A DNA stretch of 64,000 bases, from positions 1 to 64,000 of the IMG/VR virus record IMGVR_UViG_3300020202_000074. The stretch is one strand, 5' to 3'. Position 1 is the stretch's first letter; each line of letters opens with the position of its first letter. A program made the position numbers and the translations under genes. The notes below the pieces were generated by a model, which was not told the origin of the DNA, ran no database searches, and was given only the letters and a program-made list of their open reading frames with translations. Positions 3,582 through 31,866 of this stretch are shown piece by piece. Source of the DNA: a virus.

Positions 3582-4512
3582 AAAGAACCCGTATTGGTTT
3601 TCAGGCGGCGAGGCGAGGTCAATCTTGGACCCCGACATTCGCAAGCAACTCGGAATCAAACTGCACCCGAGCATTGAACTGCTGATGACAGCAAGTGATG
3701 AACTTTGCTACGCCATTGAAGCGGCGTTCTCCGATGAAGGTGTCAAGGATCGCGTTGCCGATGTACGCGCTGCCCTGGTCACGCTCTCCCTCGCCCGCCA
3801 AGCCGACGCGGCGACCATGCCGGCGGATGTGGCGACGCTCGTAGAGAAGTTGGACGACTGGACGCGATCAGACACTTCCCTCTCCTGTCGCAAATACGAT
3901 TTGCTGCAAGAGGCAATCGCGTACATCCGTCGTCCCCTCGCCCCGGCGACCCGACCATCCGCCCCTGCGGGCGATGTGGCGATGGAGATCGCTAATGTCG
4001 TGGCCGCGCACATTTGGGGCGAGTCTGTTGGCGTACCTGGCGAACTTCCAAAGGCAAAGGCGGCTCTCGCCACCCTCATCCGCCCCCACGTCACGGGGGA
4101 CTGCCCCGAAGCCGACGCAACGGACTACGCCCACCCCGCATGGTGGCGTGGACATAACTACACCGTAGAAGTTTTCTGCCGAATGGTGAATGACATCATC
4201 GACGGCAAGAAGAGTTCCAAGGGCATATCGGGCGAGCCGTGGGAATCGACCAAACGACGGCTGTTCGCCCTCGCCGCGACCGCGAGCGGGGAGCAGTGGC
4301 GGCCGATTGAGACTGCGCCGAAGGATGGGACGCGAATCCTCGGAACTGTGGTGGGACTGGAGAACTCAACATTGGTTTATTTCTGGAACCGACTCGTCGA
4401 AGAATGGCGAGTCCTATTCAGCAATGGACTATGCACTCCACCAACCCACTTCATGCCACTCCCGCCCGCCCCAGCCACGGCGGAGCAGGGCGAGAAAGGC
4501 GGTGGTTCGTGA
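3574..4512 (+). CDS. Protein with C-terminal DUF551-like domain
   Basis: The last 75 residues of this 312-residue protein match the pattern of phage DUF551 modules: a WRPIETAPKDGTRIL opening, internal strands, and a THFMPLPPAP ending (the usual form is THWxPLP). The N-terminal 220 residues are Ala-rich and helical and look like several copies of a loose module split by linkers, a mosaic seen in other phage DUF551 proteins. The function of DUF551 is not known. The start follows AAGGAG. Confidence 0.65.
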   Translation: MAEKNPYWFSGGEARSILDPDIRKQLGIKLHPSIELLMTASDELCYAIEAAFSDEGVKDRVADVRAALVTLSLARQADAATMPADVATLVEKLDDWTRSDTSLSCRKYDLLQEAIAYIRRPLAPATRPSAPAGDVAMEIANVVAAHIWGESVGVPGELPKAKAALATLIRPHVTGDCPEADATDYAHPAWWRGHNYTVEVFCRMVNDIIDGKKSSKGISGEPWESTKRRLFALAATASGEQWRPIETAPKDGTRILGTVVGLENSTLVYFWNRLVEEWRVLFSNGLCTPPTHFMPLPPAPATAEQGEKGGGS

Positions 4513-4838
4513 TAGGTGATCCGATCAAAGGCATGAAACAGGAGATGGACCACACGTTCGGAGCAGCGGACATCCCTAGGCCTAAGCCCGTCGAGACGAT
4601 GACAGTCCCCGTGGAGGACATCGAGCAGGTGCTCTACGACCTCAAGGACGCCGCCTCCCTCCTGCGGCTCATTGAGACGGGCGCTATTGTGGATCGCAGC
4701 AAGTTGCCGCCCGGCGTCACCCTCGCGATGGTCTCGGGCATCGAGGCTCGCCTCAACAAGTCATGGACCGCCCTCGCTGACTACACCTCGTCAACATCCT
4801 CGTCGGATGTGGACCCCACCCATCAGAACCCCACATAA
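4509..4838 (+). CDS. Hypothetical helical protein, 109 aa
   Basis: The most likely start is the GTG at 4509, which overlaps the previous stop (GTGA); an ATG at 4533 is the alternative. The middle of the protein is helical (VEDIEQVLYDLKDAASLLRLI and GIEARLNKSWTALADY), and the end is Ser-rich. It fits small phage proteins of the DUF-type two-helix class, but no family is certain. Confidence 0.55.
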   Translation: MIGDPIKGMKQEMDHTFGAADIPRPKPVETMTVPVEDIEQVLYDLKDAASLLRLIETGAIVDRSKLPPGVTLAMVSGIEARLNKSWTALADYTSSTSSSDVDPTHQNPT

Positions 4839-9006: not shown

Positions 9007-9267
9007 ATGAAGGTTACGTTCATCAGCAACAGTGGCGACGGTACCCCCCAGACCATCGAGGTTCCGGACGACACCACCCTCGACATCGTTCTTCGTCAGA
9101 AGGGCGTCAACGAGGGCCAGGTCGTCATCTCCCACAACCGCCAGCGCGTCCCCGCCGGCAGCGCCGCCCAGACCCGCCTCCAGGACGGTGACCGCGTCGC
9201 GGTGACCCCGACGAACATGAAGGGAGCCATTGGCTCCGAGGGCGCTGAGATCCGTCTCGCCGCCTAA
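9007..9267 (+). CDS. Ubiquitin-like (beta-grasp) modifier protein
   Basis: This 86-residue protein has the ThiS/MoaD/ubiquitin-like pattern: an N-terminal hairpin (MKVTFISN, PQTIEVPDD), a helix (TTLDIVLRQKGV), then VVISHNRQRVPAG and the late signature LQDGDRVAVTPTN. It is followed by NMKGAIG and a short tail ending in RLAA. Charged modifiers of this family normally end in Gly-Gly; here no GG is present, so cleavage near GA or IG by the JAB protein at 10786, or another linkage, must be considered. Neighbours encoding E2-like, JAB and E1-like proteins make it the likely modifier of the locus. Confidence 0.8.
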   Translation: MKVTFISNSGDGTPQTIEVPDDTTLDIVLRQKGVNEGQVVISHNRQRVPAGSAAQTRLQDGDRVAVTPTNMKGAIGSEGAEIRLAA

Positions 9268-9284
9268 TAGTCTGCGGTTAGGCA

Positions 9285-9396
9285 GCCAACGTAGCTCAAG
9301 AAGGTAGTACCTGGCCCGGTCGCTCCGGTCAGCGAATCCCCTGGAAGAGCGTCGGACAATAATCCGGTGATGGAGGTTCGAGTCCTCCCGTTGGCT
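9285..9396 (+). tRNA. tRNA-like gene with D-loop insertion
   Basis: The acceptor stem GCCAACG (9285-9291) / CGTTGGC (9389-9395) is perfect. The T arm GGAGG-TTCGAGT-CCTCC and the D stem GCTC/GAGC (9294-9297, 9347-9350) are canonical. The D loop is 49 bases instead of 8-11 and holds a strong hairpin (9311-9332). The anticodon stem TCGGA/TCCGG closes a 6-base loop CAATAA with no U33, so no amino acid can be assigned. It lies between the ubiquitin-like and E2-like genes. Confidence 0.7.
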
Positions 9397-9446
9397 TTGT
9401 ACGTTACGTTCCTACTTCCACCCCCTCGCTCTAGAAGGAGCACCAT

Positions 9447-10754
9447 ATGGAGTACCCTGACAGCCTAAAGCTGGAGGTCCTGACTCCGGAGAAAGCCCTG
9501 GCCCTCGCGGGCCGCCTCGTCGCCAAGATCCTCCCCAAACCAGCCCCCAACACCCCAGACACCCCTCAGGGTCTCCCTCGCGTCGTGGAGCACAAGACCA
9601 CCGCGAAGATGAAGCGGAACATCAAGGCGATCGAGACCGCCCTCGCCAAGGGCGACCTCCAGAAGTTCAACGCGATGGTGATGGAGTTGCGGGCCCAGAT
9701 GAACACCGTAGAGTGGGCGAAGCTCGTCACCAACTGGACGGCCAAGAAGACCATCGGGACCTCCCCAGTGCGGGATGTGGCCGCCAGCCTCGTCGCCGTC
9801 GCCCGCGCGTATCCGACGCACATCCTCAGCGGCCCCATCTACTGGCGCAAGGACCGCAAACCCGACTCGGTCAACGGTCGAGGCGCCATCGCATTCCAGA
9901 TGTGGAGCCTCCTGGTCGACACCCCTCACATCTTCCTCTACGACATGGACGACCAGGAGTTCGATCTCGGCCCGATGCGCCTCCATTACAACCTGAAGTA
10001 CCTGCTCGCCCATTTCCCACACTGGGATCCAGGTTACGCTATCAACACGGTGCGGGTGGAGCCCCTGGATCCCTACTGGCCGACTCACAAAGCAGACGTC
10101 AACCTCGCCGTTGGCGAAATCACCACCGACCAACCCAGCCACCTCGCCCGGACCCACCCCTTCGCCGCCACTCACAACCTGGAGTGCCACCCGCACATCC
10201 GGGGCGGTCGACCCTGCTTAGGGACTGCGCTGCCCGCTCTGGCCAGGGAGCTCCACAGCTTGATGTTCTGGGAAGCCACCGACATCCTCATCGGCTACCT
10301 TCAGTCCTACAACCCCGCCGACGTCTTCCGCTCCCTTGAGATGTGGAACGTCCCCGCCTGCGCCAACTGCGGCTACCTCGGCAAGAAGCCCGACGACCGC
10401 ACCAAGTGCGACATCAGCGGCGGCGAGACGTGCGCCAACTGCCGTTACCGCGAGAACTACGTCGACCTCGACGGAAAGGCCCACGTCGTGACGGTGAACG
10501 GCACCCGGTACGGCCAACACTCCCTCCGCGAATGGGCCGCGAAGACGTACGACGAGCCCATCAAAGCACGCAGGGCCGCAGAGGCCGCTGCGATGTCGGT
10601 CGGCCTCTCCCCCAACTCCCTTCCCACTGCGTCCCCCGTAACGGAGCCCTCCGATGGCCCGAAGAAGAAAACGCGGAAAAAAGCCCGCACCCCTACCCCG
10701 TCCGATTACGCCCCCTTCGAGTACGTCGAACCGTCCAGGGACGAGCCGTTCTAA
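9447..10754 (+). CDS. E2-like ubiquitin-conjugating enzyme with zinc ribbon
   Basis: Residues about 170-300 of this 435-residue protein carry the E2 (UBC) core signature: an H-P-H-I turn at 248-251, then GG and the putative catalytic Cys257 in RPCLG, followed by the two C-terminal helices and LQSYNPADVF, the counterpart of the NPxDP loop. A treble-clef or zinc ribbon follows, with CxxC near 305, a Cys near 318 and CxxC near 327. The N-terminal 150 residues are a separate helical region. In this family the Cys takes the modifier from the E1 as a thioester. The last 50 residues are basic. The tail overlaps a basic ORF before the JAB gene. Confidence 0.75.
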   Translation: MEYPDSLKLEVLTPEKALALAGRLVAKILPKPAPNTPDTPQGLPRVVEHKTTAKMKRNIKAIETALAKGDLQKFNAMVMELRAQMNTVEWAKLVTNWTAKKTIGTSPVRDVAASLVAVARAYPTHILSGPIYWRKDRKPDSVNGRGAIAFQMWSLLVDTPHIFLYDMDDQEFDLGPMRLHYNLKYLLAHFPHWDPGYAINTVRVEPLDPYWPTHKADVNLAVGEITTDQPSHLARTHPFAATHNLECHPHIRGGRPCLGTALPALARELHSLMFWEATDILIGYLQSYNPADVFRSLEMWNVPACANCGYLGKKPDDRTKCDISGGETCANCRYRENYVDLDGKAHVVTVNGTRYGQHSLREWAAKTYDEPIKARRAAEAAAMSVGLSPNSLPTASPVTEPSDGPKKKTRKKARTPTPSDYAPFEYVEPSRDEPF

Positions 10755-10785
10755 GGGATACTCCGCTAAAGGTAAAGGCAACAAG

Positions 10786-11811
10786 ATGACACACGGATAC
10801 AGCTACAACAGCCATGGCAGCTCCGGCTACCAGGTCAAGTCCTTCAGTCCCCCACCCCCTCCACAGCTGAGTTTCTCCGTCTACGCGTGGATGAAACTCC
10901 AGTGGTTCTGCCACGCGGCCGACACCGAGGTCGGAGCGTTCGGCATCACCGACCCGGAGAATCCCCTCCACGTCGTGGACATGATTTTCCCACCGCAGAA
11001 GTGCACCACGGTGTCGGTCGATTACGACGACCAGGGACTCATCGACTTCGCCATGGACTGCGCGGAAGCCAACATCGCCCCCGCCAACAGCATGCGGGTA
11101 TGGATCCACACCCACCCCGGCAACAGCCCCACGCCCTCCTCCACCGATGAGGAGACGCTCGCCACTGTGTACAAGGACTCGTCCTGGGCGGTGATGTTCA
11201 TCCTCGCACGTGGCGGCGCCACCTACTGCCGCCTGCGGGCGAACCCCGCCGACAAGGTGTCCCTCTCGTCGGAGATCAAGGTCGTCCTGCCCACCATCTT
11301 CGACTACATGAAGTACACCGAGGTCCCTCTCTCTCACGTCGCCACCTGGGAGAAGGAGCTCAAGGACAACGTCTCCAAACCCGCCGCCCGCGTCTATTCA
11401 TACACCAGCAGCACTCCTTCCAACTACACGCCTGTCGGCATTGCGGGTCACCGAGTCTTGAAGAAGGGCTACGACGACCTGCCCGCGTACAAGGCATGGA
11501 TGGCGGATCGAGACTTCACGGATCCCTTCCCCAAGTATCTGTACATGCACTACCCCGAGCTTTATTGGGTGTACTTCGAGCCTCCCGACTGGTGCAAGAA
11601 CGATTACACCACTGGCCGACCGGAGCCCGCCACCTCAGGCATCATCGTCGCGTCTGAGGGTCCCGCCGAGCGGGTCAAGGCCCGCAAGCTGCTGTCCGCC
11701 GCCGAGAAGGCCCAAGACCTCCTCGATGACGACACCCAAGACACCCTCTACGGAAGCTCCGCCGCTGCTGACGACAACGAAATGGCCCGCTTCATGGAGG
11801 GCCGCCTCTAG
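10786..11811 (+). CDS. JAB/JAMM metalloprotease-like protein
   Basis: The JAMM zinc motif is complete: Glu48 in DTEVGAFG, then His108-x-His110-Pro with Ser118 and Asp121 in the HTHPGNSPTPSSTDE stretch. Proteases of this kind cut ubiquitin-like proteins from targets or trim their C-termini. The catalytic domain covers about residues 28-165. The remaining 175 residues, rich in Tyr and Pro, are unlike known JAB tails and may bind substrate or virion. It is the third gene of the ubiquitin-like locus. The ATG at 10786 is preceded by GGTAAAGG. Confidence 0.85.
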   Translation: MTHGYSYNSHGSSGYQVKSFSPPPPPQLSFSVYAWMKLQWFCHAADTEVGAFGITDPENPLHVVDMIFPPQKCTTVSVDYDDQGLIDFAMDCAEANIAPANSMRVWIHTHPGNSPTPSSTDEETLATVYKDSSWAVMFILARGGATYCRLRANPADKVSLSSEIKVVLPTIFDYMKYTEVPLSHVATWEKELKDNVSKPAARVYSYTSSTPSNYTPVGIAGHRVLKKGYDDLPAYKAWMADRDFTDPFPKYLYMHYPELYWVYFEPPDWCKNDYTTGRPEPATSGIIVASEGPAERVKARKLLSAAEKAQDLLDDDTQDTLYGSSAAADDNEMARFMEGRL

Positions 11812-12069
11812 CCACGACGGGCGTACGCTGTGGAAGGACACAGGGCGGAAAAGCTATCCGCAAGCGGGCAGATGCAAGAGGCTGTAAGAGCACCGGCTCT
11901 TGGTGCCGGAGCGCTCTGAGCTGTACGTAGCTGGCCGGAAGGCCCCGATCAGAAGTCCCGAGCCGGAATCAAGCCCGGCCCGCCCACCCGCACACCCCCC
12001 GCCAACCTGCGGCCAATACTTGCTGCTCCCCTCCACGGAGGGGTGTGGCCAATGCGAGGCGGGGGATTC
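11812..12069. other. Intergenic RNA-rich stretch
   Basis: No gene is seen. It holds a GCGG...CCGC hairpin near 11845-11860, the Gln-like tRNA structure (11864-11984) and the stem CCCCTCC/GGAGGGG at about 12034-12049, ahead of the tRNA-like gene at 12070. Confidence 0.5.
11864..11984 (+). tRNA. Possible tRNA-like structure, Gln-type anticodon arm
   Basis: GCGGGC (11864-11869) can pair with GCCCGC (11978-11983). A short D stem TGC/GCA encloses a loop with GG. The anticodon arm CCGGC-TCTTGGT-GCCGG has a 7-base loop that reads TTG (Gln) but with C in place of the invariant U33. The T arm is irregular (GCCGG-AATCAAGC-CCGGC) and about 45 extra bases lie in the variable region. It may be a degenerate or structured RNA rather than a working tRNA. 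Confidence 0.35.
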
Positions 12070-12173
12070 GCCGGAGTAGCTCAGTGAAGGAGCAACGATT
12101 GATCCCCGTTGTGCCTTCCGGTAGAGCGTCGGAAGAACTCCGAAGGTCGCAGGTTCGAGTCCTGCCTCCGGCA
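12070..12173 (+). tRNA. tRNA-like gene with D-loop hairpin insertion
   Basis: The acceptor stem GCCGGAG/CTCCGGC is perfect and the T arm GCAGG-TTCGAGT-CCTGC is canonical. The D stem GCTC/GAGC encloses 41 bases, including a hairpin in which GAAGG and GCAACG (12086-12097) pair with CGTTGT and CCTTC (12107-12118). The anticodon stem TCGGA/TCCGA leaves only a 5-base loop; with a 4-base stem the loop is AAGAACT, reading GAA (Phe) but lacking U33. It lies between the JAB and E1-like genes. Confidence 0.7.
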
Positions 12174-12215
12174 TTCAGTACCAGACCCCCTATCTAAATC
12201 TAAAGGAACCCGATC

Positions 12216-13028
12216 ATGCCCCGACAGACTGAAGAAGAAACGAACCTCCGCCAGAAGCGATTCCGTGACCTCGGCGAGAAGATGAGTCAGGCCTCCTGCG
12301 TCGTCATTGGCTGCGGCGCCATCGGCCGCCAGGTGGCCATGCAGCTCGCCGTCATGGGCGTCGCCACCCTCGACCTCTACGACCCTGGCGACATCGAGGA
12401 AGTGAACCTCGGCACCCAGGGTTGGAGCCCCCTCGACGAGGGCAAGCCCAAGGCCCAAGTCCTCGCGGAAGAGATCGAGGATGTGAACCCCGACGTCATC
12501 GTCGGCACCGTCATTGGCACCTTCAAGGTGAGCCCCACCGCGCAGAACGTAGCGGATACGTACGTATTCATGTGCGTGGACTCGATGGAAGCTCGCACCG
12601 AAATCTTCCAGGCCATCAAGAAGGTGGCGGTGGAGGGAGCACCAGCCCACCTTTTCATCGACGCGCGGATGACGATGGAAGCCGCTCGGATTTTGGTGGT
12701 GGACAACCTCGCGGCCGACGAGTATTATCAATCCACCCTATTTGCCGACCGCGACGCGCTGGCTGACGGATGCACGACGAAATCGACCTTCTACTGCGCC
12801 AGCCTCGCGGCGTCGCTGATGGTGACGCAGTTCGCCAAGCACCTTCGGGGGATCGAGACCGACCGCGACATGACCATCGACCTTCGATCTATGGAACTGT
12901 TCCCCACCACCATCGACACGGCGCCCACAGCGGTGTCGCACACGTGCTCGGACAGCAGCCCGCCGGCGCTGGAGACCGCTGCGGTCGATGCCGTCCTGCG
13001 TAGCGTGACCGTCTGCCCGATGCCCTAG
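12216..13028 (+). CDS. ThiF/E1-like activating enzyme
   Basis: This 270-residue protein has the adenylation fold of E1, MoeB and ThiF enzymes: GCGAIG at 32-37 for ATP, the DPGDIEEVNLGTQG loop (58-70), Lys79, Asp122 in CVDSMEARTEI with Arg127, and a putative catalytic Cys186 in DGCTTKST. Such enzymes adenylate the C-terminus of a ubiquitin-like protein and pass it as a thioester to an E2. It lacks an appended E2 domain, which here is a separate gene. AAAGGAA precedes the ATG. The size and the CTTKS region recall ThiF proteins of bacterial E1-E2-JAB cassettes. Confidence 0.85.
   Translation: MPRQTEEETNLRQKRFRDLGEKMSQASCVVIGCGAIGRQVAMQLAVMGVATLDLYDPGDIEEVNLGTQGWSPLDEGKPKAQVLAEEIEDVNPDVIVGTVIGTFKVSPTAQNVADTYVFMCVDSMEARTEIFQAIKKVAVEGAPAHLFIDARMTMEAARILVVDNLAADEYYQSTLFADRDALADGCTTKSTFYCASLAASLMVTQFAKHLRGIETDRDMTIDLRSMELFPTTIDTAPTAVSHTCSDSSPPALETAAVDAVLRSVTVCPMP
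12901..12911 (+). repeat. TCCCCACCACC word
   Basis: An exact copy within the E1-like gene, encoding FPTTID. Confidence 0.8.
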
Positions 13029-19530: not shown

Positions 19531-19794
19531 ATGTTGCTCAGCGCGGCCATCGACAAGGTGCGGCAGGCCGCCCACCAATCGGGGTACGTCACCTACCGGC
19601 GGGGCAGTGCTACAGGGTCGGTGTACATCAACTGCTGGCTGAGCGACCGCCTGATCCACACCGTCCGATTGGCGACGCACTCCGCTCGATACGGGCAATG
19701 CACGATCTCCGTGGATCCTCGCTTCGAGGAGACGGTGGAAGCCGCAATAAAGGAGCTTCGGGATGCAGCTGCCGCAGCTGTTGAGCCACGCTGA
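19531..19794 (+). CDS. Hypothetical protein, 87 aa
   Basis: AAGGAG lies 6 bases upstream of the ATG. The middle has three likely strands (YVTYRRGSATGSVYINCWLS, LIHTVRLATHS, CTISVDP), followed by an Ala-rich helix. It overlaps the uracil-DNA glycosylase start by 32 bases, so the two are probably translated together. Confidence 0.6.
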   Translation: MLLSAAIDKVRQAAHQSGYVTYRRGSATGSVYINCWLSDRLIHTVRLATHSARYGQCTISVDPRFEETVEAAIKELRDAAAAAVEPR

Positions 19795-20485
19795 GTGCGT
19801 CAAGTGTCCTCTACATAACCAGGGCGTTGGGATTCCAATGGTGGTGGGGATGAAAACGATCGCGCTGCCGACGTCGCTGCCACCTGGGCCAGACGTCCCG
19901 GCGCTGTTGGTACTCGGCCAGAACCCTGGACTCCAGGAGGACCGCAAGGGCGAGCCCTTCATCGGCCCCTCGGGGCAGGTCCTCCGAGGACCCTATCTCC
20001 AAGGCGTAAAGCTCCACGAGCGGATGTCCATCTACCTGGGCAACGGGGTCCGCTGCTTCACCGTGGGCAACGAGACGCCGAAGGCCAAGCACTACAAAGC
20101 GTGCTTTGGCTATAGCCTGGAGGACCTCGATGCCATCCTCACGGTGCACACGAACGCCAAGGTCGGCGTCCTCCTCACGGGGGCGCCCGTCGCGACGGCC
20201 TTCTACAAGCACGCGCTGGGGTTCAAGACTATGAACCTCGCCAAGGCCTTCTCCCTCAACAGCAAGCCGCAGCTCTACAAGGGACGCGAGATCGGCGTCT
20301 TCGCCGTGTACCACCCTGCCTTCTGCCTCCGCAAGAAGGAGGTCATCACCACCGTCCACGACCATATGGCCCTCGTGAGGTCCTGGTACGACGGCACGAT
20401 GCCCATCCCCACCTCCCCGGAGGTTGTCGAACCCTTCATGGCACCTCCGGTGCCTATGGCCCCCCTCGCCACCCTTGGGGGTTGA
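19763..20485 (+). CDS. Uracil-DNA glycosylase, family 4-like
   Basis: The 240-residue protein has the family 4/5 pattern. An N-terminal CxxC (Cys12, Cys15) and two later Cys (in VRCFT and KACFG) would bind a 4Fe-4S cluster. Motif 1 is LVLGQNPGLQEDRKGEPFIG and motif 2 is VYHPAFCLRKKE. These enzymes remove uracil from DNA and leave an abasic site. In a phage this could protect against uracil incorporation. The GQNPG form of motif 1 differs from the usual GEAPG. A copy of the GGTGGTGGGGA word lies in the coding region at 19840. Confidence 0.85.
   Translation: MQLPQLLSHAECVKCPLHNQGVGIPMVVGMKTIALPTSLPPGPDVPALLVLGQNPGLQEDRKGEPFIGPSGQVLRGPYLQGVKLHERMSIYLGNGVRCFTVGNETPKAKHYKACFGYSLEDLDAILTVHTNAKVGVLLTGAPVATAFYKHALGFKTMNLAKAFSLNSKPQLYKGREIGVFAVYHPAFCLRKKEVITTVHDHMALVRSWYDGTMPIPTSPEVVEPFMAPPVPMAPLATLGG
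19840..19850 (-). repeat. TCCCCACCACC word
   Basis: An exact copy within the glycosylase gene, encoding PMVVGM. Confidence 0.8.
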
Positions 20486-31780: not shown

Positions 31781-31857
31781 GGTGGTTATGGCACAATGGC
31801 GAGTGCGCCGGAGAGATAGAGATCCGGAGGTCCGGGTTCGAGTCCCGGTAGCCACCC
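31781..31857 (+). tRNA. tRNA-like gene with expanded anticodon loop
   Basis: The acceptor GTGGTTA/TAGCCAC (31782-31788, 31849-31855) is extended by a G-C pair at position -1, as in tRNA-His. The D arm GCAC-AATGGCGA-GTGC and the T arm CCGGG-TTCGAGT-CCCGG are canonical. The anticodon stem CCGGA/TCCGG closes a 10-base purine-rich loop GAGATAGAGA with no standard anticodon layout. The identity is unassigned. Confidence 0.65.
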
Positions 31858-31866
31858 CGCCCACCT

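Follow-up and report, generated by a model that had tools for sequence, protein, structure and literature searches.

Organization of the locus

The stretch of DNA analysed here (hereafter the window) comprises the first 64,000 bases of the 65,474-base IMG/VR virus record IMGVR_UViG_3300020202_000074. At positions 9007-13028 it carries four open reading frames (ORFs), all on the plus strand, for which an earlier reading of the letters (the sequence-only reading) had proposed a ubiquitin-like (Ubl) modifier, an E2-like protein, a JAB peptidase and an E1-like protein. The four ORFs were found at these positions, in the order Ubl-E2-JAB-E1. With its genes for terminase, DNA polymerase, exonuclease and a collagen-like tail fibre, the record was assigned to a tailed phage; nothing more precise is established, and the "podovirus-like" label given earlier was not retained.

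The precursor of the Ubl modifier (9007-9267) has 86 residues and a ThiS-like beta-grasp domain, and the E2-like protein (9447-10754) has 435 residues. The JAB/JAMM peptidase (10786-11811, 341 residues) lies in a frame that is open from 10654; its most likely start is 10786 (M45 of that frame), and with this start the numbering previously given for its residues Glu48, His108, His110, Ser118 and Asp121 is exact. The E1-like adenylyltransferase (12216-13028) has 270 residues, a ThiF fold and a putative catalytic cysteine, Cys186. Shine-Dalgarno-like AAGGAG sequences precede the Ubl (9007) and E2 (9447) genes, an AAAGG-like ribosome site precedes the E1 gene (12216) and a weaker one the JAB gene.

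Each gene was searched for with a leave-one-out profile hidden Markov model (HMM), built from 51-57 relatives with the window sequence excluded and run against the 456 ORFs of the window. Every model gave a single match, always the expected gene, with E-values of 2.7e-14 for the Ubl, 3.8e-19 for the E2, 4.1e-49 for the JAB and 5.9e-66 for the E1. As for the library profiles run with single proteins, Pfam ThiS matched the Ubl (3.5e-6, above the cut-off) and Pfam ThiF the E1 (1.9e-23), while the Prok-JAB match of the JAB protein (4e-4) was weak and below the cut-off. The motifs singled out in the sequence-only reading are all present (LQDGDRV, HPHIRGGRPCLG with Cys257, NPADVF, WIHTHPGNSPTPSSTD, GCGAIG, Lys79, Asp122 and Cys186). 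Its central claim, a complete gene set for a Ubl pathway, is thus backed by the leave-one-out models and by the invariance of the catalytic residues described below.

Distribution of the module

Single-sequence searches with the E2 and the E1 in IMG/VR, and with the E2 and the JAB in phage records, yielded no relatives. Translated searches (tblastn) with the E1 reached Flavobacterium psychrophilum phages, crAss-like phages and large Xanthomonas and Erwinia phages. Two of them, FpV4 and the crAss-like bajarodcaudo virus 1, have the Ubl, an E2 with an H.H..CxG motif, the JAB and then the E1 one after another as in the window, and in both the E2 and JAB genes overlap. Alignment-based scans then provided 228 related viral stretches, of which 80 were kept, 52 more in a second round, and 32 in GTDB species genomes. 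A JAB ORF lies directly upstream of the E1 in most of the first 80 viral stretches and all four positions are filled in 45 of them, the Ubl picked by position being wrong in some. Taking all loci together, there are 58 distinct E2 proteins that adjoin a JAB and carry an HP-x..C-x-G type motif. Dozens of viral contigs have these genes in the order Ubl-E2-JAB-E1, as do the published Flavobacterium phage FpV4 and crAss-like phages and some genomes of Planctomycetota and other bacteria, so that the suggestion to look for the same four genes in other phages led to a recurrent phage module. Six partial records related to the phage through its terminase were found to carry no such module; it is therefore probably accessory among them, which, the records being incomplete, is no firm claim.

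Among bacteria the module occurs sporadically: it was found in 15 of 150 genomes of the Phycisphaerae, a class of Planctomycetota, with up to four copies in a single genome. In a Phycisphaerae genome (locus L189), a CRISPR array of 19 repeats (GTCGCTCCCATCACGGGAGCGTGGATTGAAAC, spacing 65-67) at 1227-2466 lies about 7 kb from a chromosomal module, and a use in defence is possible for such bacterial copies. Two bacterial loci also share an extra gene upstream of the E2 (MAWRP..EGxLDNT..GWMKFAG..; L189 12731-13600, minus strand; L191 6408-7115, plus strand), possibly a fifth component of the module as it occurs in bacteria.

E1, JAB and Ubl modifier

In the E1, residues G32, G34, D56, N64, K79, D122, R127, R151 and C186, i.e. 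the ThiF adenylation residues and the catalytic Cys, are invariant in 57 of 57 sequences. Identity to the window E1 is about 24-43% across the relatives and about 30-43% within the group of the window; invariance of the catalytic residues at such low identity indicates strong selection for catalysis. About 37 C-terminal residues of the window E1 (12900-13028) are absent from its closest relatives. In the E1 tree, 44 phage and 10 bacterial module E1s form one group (support 95/89), apart from the PRTRC ThiF (100/100), from ThiF/MoeB and from the E1s of polyUbl systems. The bacterial E1s fall in three places within the phage diversity, and the window E1 groups with phages and Planctomycetota (99/92); the tree being midpoint-rooted, the direction of transfer cannot be read from it.

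Concerning the JAB, the Glu, His, His, Ser and Asp residues are kept in 58 of 58 relatives, and profile matches include the RPN11, AMSH, CSN5 and JAMM1 structures.

The Ubl combines its ThiS-type beta-grasp domain with a C-terminal glycine, Gly73, which is conserved in 31 of the 33 close Ubl picks and in 48 of the full set of 51, some of the picks being wrong frames. The next residue is mostly Gly or Ala, with a short tail after it, so that 0-15 residues altogether stand behind the glycine; in the window, the 13-residue tail is AIGSEGAEIRLAA. The Ubls of FpV4 and of the crAss-like phage extend about 150-200 residues beyond the equivalent site. From its sequence, such a glycine with a variable tail would look like a precursor trimmed by a JAMM peptidase. 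The jumbo Xanthomonas phage PhiXhv-12 has the E1 and no JAB match across its whole record, and the small protein at its Ubl position, a putative Ubl assigned by eye, ends in GG; neither the Ubl nor the E2 profile reaches the candidates of this phage. We count the combination of a missing JAB and a putative Ubl that already ends in GG in favour of a pathway with JAB trimming.

The E2-like protein

The E2-like protein consists of a long helical N-terminal region, a UBC-like core (about residues 104-300) and a C-terminal Cys cluster. The first of these had been missing from the earlier description, which was otherwise correct as to the motifs. The active-site motif CHPHIRGGRPCLG (residues 247-259, positions 10185-10223) contains Cys257. 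In the window-anchored alignment, Cys257 and Gly259 are present in 58 of 58 relatives, His248 in 57 and Pro249 in 54, and all four are invariant in a narrower alignment (n = 36). The conservation of Cys257 in the E2 and of Cys186 in the E1, on which the sequence-only reading had made its proposal depend, thus holds in all relatives compared.

An AlphaFold2 (AF2) model of the whole protein shows a confident core behind the helical region, and the core modelled alone from 36 sequences (residues 104-300) reached a mean pLDDT of 76.7 and a pTM of 0.73. When the core was compared with known structures by VIA-align, the 11 best chains were all ubiquitin-conjugating enzymes, with every Z score below 8: Ube2W (Z 7.4, root-mean-square deviation 3.4 Å over 115 residues), Ube2S (7.4), Ube2H (6.8) and UbcH5b (6.5) among them; next came RWD domains, a further E2, the CBASS CdnG-E2 and Atg3. 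A profile search of the PDB, which uses no structural model, also had E2 enzymes as its 11 best matches, including UBE2L3, with HPHV..DG..CL opposite HPNIDEKGQVCL of UBE2L3 and the HPN..C of the latter on HPH..C. Finally, hhalign aligned the core with the plasmid protein PRTRC_B (E 7e-5, probability 63.5; reversed controls below 1%), Cys on Cys, the active-site motif facing GRICIGS. Of the folds expected by the sequence-only reading, UBC is therefore backed by the model of the core and by the PDB profile search, and ThiS, JAB and ThiF by sequence profiles. On this modelling and sequence evidence, the E2-like protein is very likely a UBC enzyme. Two members of the family match phrog_15310, whose function is unassigned.

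The Cys cluster (C305, C308, C321, C329 and C332; positions 10359-10442) is a putative zinc-binding module. It had been taken for a zinc ribbon whose fusion to the E2 might mark a new variant; the cluster is there, and it is not special to this phage, since 31 of the 58 E2s have at least two CxxC in the tail. A Cys-rich C-terminus is found in most relatives, with up to 45 Cys. In one relative (L005), a separate Cys-rich protein with several CxxC is encoded between the Ubl and the E2 (3868-4722) and is a possible free-standing E3-like factor.

Comparison with known systems

So far, the known bacterial E1/E2/Ubl systems that include an E2 have for the most part been interpreted as defences against phages or as cassettes of plasmids. 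Several types of bacterial Ubl/E1/E2/JAB operons were predicted by Iyer et al. (2006), together with phage TAPI/TAPK proteins that have Ubl and JAB domains (PMC1779556). The sequence-only reading had pointed to Bil, PRTRC-like and CBASS-associated sets as relatives, which holds for the kind of system and fails for the defining features of Bil and PRTRC.

The layout resembles that of the plasmid PRTRC cassette (PRTRC_C, _B, _A and ThiF; row 6d of Iyer et al. 2006): both have the order Ubl..E2-JAB-E1 and both are carried by mobile elements, the E2 core aligns with PRTRC_B, the JAB weakly with PRTRC_A and the E1 with PRTRC_ThiF (at 99.4%), and PRTRC_C also ends in Gly, sometimes with a short tail. 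In contrast, the phage E2 has HPH before the Cys (57 of the 58 module E2s have a His there) and a Cys-rich C-terminus, whereas PRTRC_B lacks this motif and has a conserved His downstream. The window E1 scored 35.8 bits against the PRTRC_ThiF model, for a cut-off of 144.75, and lies in a separate clade. No relation between the Ubl and PRTRC_C was found by hhalign, and the PRTRC_B, PRTRC_F and PRTRC ParB families had no match in the 65,474-base record, which is possibly incomplete.

With the anti-phage operon Bil (BilABCD), the window shares the four-gene Ubl/E2/JAB/E1 toolkit, and the JAB of Bil trims its Ubl to expose a glycine (PMC11354881). BilA, however, has two tandem beta-grasp domains, the Bil E2 a C-E-H-H motif and BilD an IAD+AAD pseudodimer with a Cys domain (PMC11354881), whereas the window has a single-domain Ubl of 86 residues, an E2 of the H-P-x..C-x-G type (HPH before the Cys) and an E1 of 270 residues with one ThiF domain. 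E1, E2 and JAB domains are also common to CBASS Cap2/Cap3, marked by an E2-E1 fusion alongside a CD-NTase, which Cap2 conjugates (PMC12355090), and to the 6A-MBL E1-E2(-JAB) fusions, and the window E1 matches these models locally; here, by contrast, E2 and E1 are separate ORFs accompanied by a dedicated beta-grasp Ubl. The tail assembly proteins TAPI/TAPK of lambda and T1 likewise combine beta-grasp and JAB domains on a phage, without E1 or E2 (PMC1779556). As for the eukaryotic UBE2, RPN11 and UBA proteins, they share the UBC-like core, the JAMM motif and the ThiF adenylation domain, and differ from the phage set in that the phage E1 is single-domain, the Cys cluster is fused to the E2 and there is no separate E3. 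Finally, the Ubl and the E1 stayed below the cut-offs of the ThiS (27.0 vs. 37.45 bits) and ThiF (56.8 vs. 275.25 bits) equivalogs, in agreement with the tree. The window system is therefore classed as one that works like the PRTRC, Bil, CBASS Cap2/Cap3 and ThiS/ThiF systems, yet forms a branch of its own.

No paper on a phage module with an E2 was found in the open-access literature searched, subscription papers and preprints lying mostly outside the scope of the search, and its novelty is meant relative to that scope. With a catalytically intact, recurrent version on the phage side, carried by crAss-like phages of the gut and by Flavobacterium phages in culture, it can be tested directly whether phages tag proteins with a Ubl modifier of their own, which proteins these are and whether phage modules fed cellular systems; the F. 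psychrophilum phages offer an existing phage-host pair for such experiments.

Gene neighbourhood and proposed role

A scan of the genes flanking the module covered 140 proteins from about 30 viral loci. The commonest families were a DnaB-like helicase, primase, the Sak4 and Erf annealing proteins, RNA ligase, uracil-DNA glycosylase (UDG), Toprim, SNF2 and a DNA helicase, and structural families were rare. The window itself has its module in the left arm, encoded on the same strand as the DNA polymerase and the exonuclease and at a distance from the structural genes of the minus strand. Since the flanks hold mostly replication and recombination genes, a replication-stage or host-takeover role is favoured over virion tagging; of the virion, host or defence proteins named as possible targets by the sequence-only reading, the virion proteins are thus disfavoured. 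The simplest reading is an early, replication-stage function aimed at phage replication proteins or host factors. A further ORF on the plus strand of the window (19763-20485) resembles, by eye, a family-4 type UDG, and the module has UDG genes as neighbours in FpV4 and one crAss-like phage, too.

Taken together, the locus probably encodes a complete pathway of Ubl conjugation and deconjugation, belonging to a distinct and mostly phage-borne family and likely acting early on replication-stage proteins. The JAB would cut the 13-residue tail of the Ubl and expose Gly73, which the E1 would adenylate with ATP, holding the Ubl as a thioester on Cys186. The Ubl would then pass to Cys257 of the E2, which would attach it to target proteins at lysines or other nucleophiles, with the C-terminal Cys cluster and the helical N-terminus as possible substrate-binding or E3-like elements, and the JAB may also take the Ubl off its targets. 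This would occur early in infection, on phage or host proteins of the replication stage, the latter as host takeover or counter-defence. At the level of chemistry, the scheme is well supported by homology: the gene set, its order, the homologies, the invariant catalytic residues and the UBC-like fold of the E2 core come from the sequences, and from these we infer the catalysis at every step, the site of cleavage, when and on which targets the pathway would act, and the E3-like role.

Several points weigh against this reading. Conjugation activity is read from the genes and their homology, the tally of neighbours consists of raw counts without a matched background, and the viral origin of the IMG/VR contigs is itself a prediction. 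Directly behind the key glycine, Ala predominates in the window and among its nearest relatives, and most other members have GG here, so that the mature C-terminus (Gly73 or the next residue) is uncertain. As for the E2, the VIA-align Z scores lie in a range where chance arrangements occur, the argument being thus carried by the coherence of the match list; the E-values of its PDB profile search begin at 0.19; among the library HMMs, none with a known function matches the protein; and Foldseek found nothing significant for the whole protein, where the helical N-terminus dominated the search, or for the core alone. The two latter results would also fit an unrelated Cys protein, the pathway then being limited to E1, Ubl and JAB, an option that we consider very unlikely given the coherently UBC results of VIA-align and the profiles, the HP..C motif at the expected place and the specific hhalign match to PRTRC_B. 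A sulfur carrier of the ThiS/MoaD type, in which Ubl and E1 would make a thiocarboxylate for thiamine, molybdopterin, cysteine or tRNA thiolation and the JAB would act as in CysO-type systems, would suit the ThiS and ThiF matches and the tRNA genes of the same stretch. It is the least probable alternative, for an E2 with an invariant active-site Cys is conserved in the 58 loci compared, no sulfur-transfer or cofactor enzyme appears among the recurrent neighbour families listed, and the E1 clade stands apart from ThiF/MoeB.

Two other alternatives differ from a replication-stage pathway in the targets. That the Ubl modifies structural proteins of the phage itself was suggested by the sequence-only reading and has a parallel in the JAB and Ubl-like domains of lambdoid tail assembly (PMC1779556); with TAPK/TAPI loci devoid of E1 and E2, the structural genes of the window on the other strand and tens of kb away, and replication genes next to the relatives, it appears distinctly unlikely. 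Somewhat less unlikely is a weapon in inter-phage warfare or superinfection exclusion, which would put the tag on structural proteins of rival phages, in the way that bacterial Bil treats incoming ones. The gene set is of the Bil kind (PMC11354881), and the Phycisphaerae module near a CRISPR array and the sporadic, defence-gene-like bacterial copies point the same way; against it stand the position of phage modules among replication genes, their presence also in large and crAss-like phages, and the missing Bil hallmarks (one beta-grasp domain, no C-E-H-H, a small E1). Returning to a pathway that acts on replication-stage proteins, it may be extended, quite tentatively, to a view of phages as hosts of the main radiation of this Ubl family, whose E2 would often include a Cys-rich, E3-like module of its own and which would target replication proteins in the course of infection, bacteria having repeatedly taken up copies of phage origin, some of which may serve in defence. 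If true, this would be a phage counterpart of the SUMO/ubiquitin control of the replisome.

tRNA-like elements

Three tRNA-like genes were observed in the window, all on the plus strand. As a feature of the module they were rejected, ARAGORN finding none in 18 of the 19 relatives scanned. The gene at 12070-12173, between JAB and E1, matches the Rfam tRNA model (51 bits, E 5.5e-8; missed by ARAGORN) and has about 30 extra bases that form a D-loop hairpin, an irregular anticodon loop (5 unpaired bases, AGAAC) and a fold z-score of -3.4. Between Ubl and E2, at about 9285-9397, a second element has the acceptor stem GCCAACG/CGTTGGC, a good T-arm and an enlarged D-region, with an Rfam score below the threshold (22 bits) and a fold no better than that of shuffled sequences. 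The only tRNA reported by ARAGORN (31782-31858) has a four-base anticodon (atag) in an enlarged anticodon loop, so that all three tRNA-like genes of the phage are irregular.

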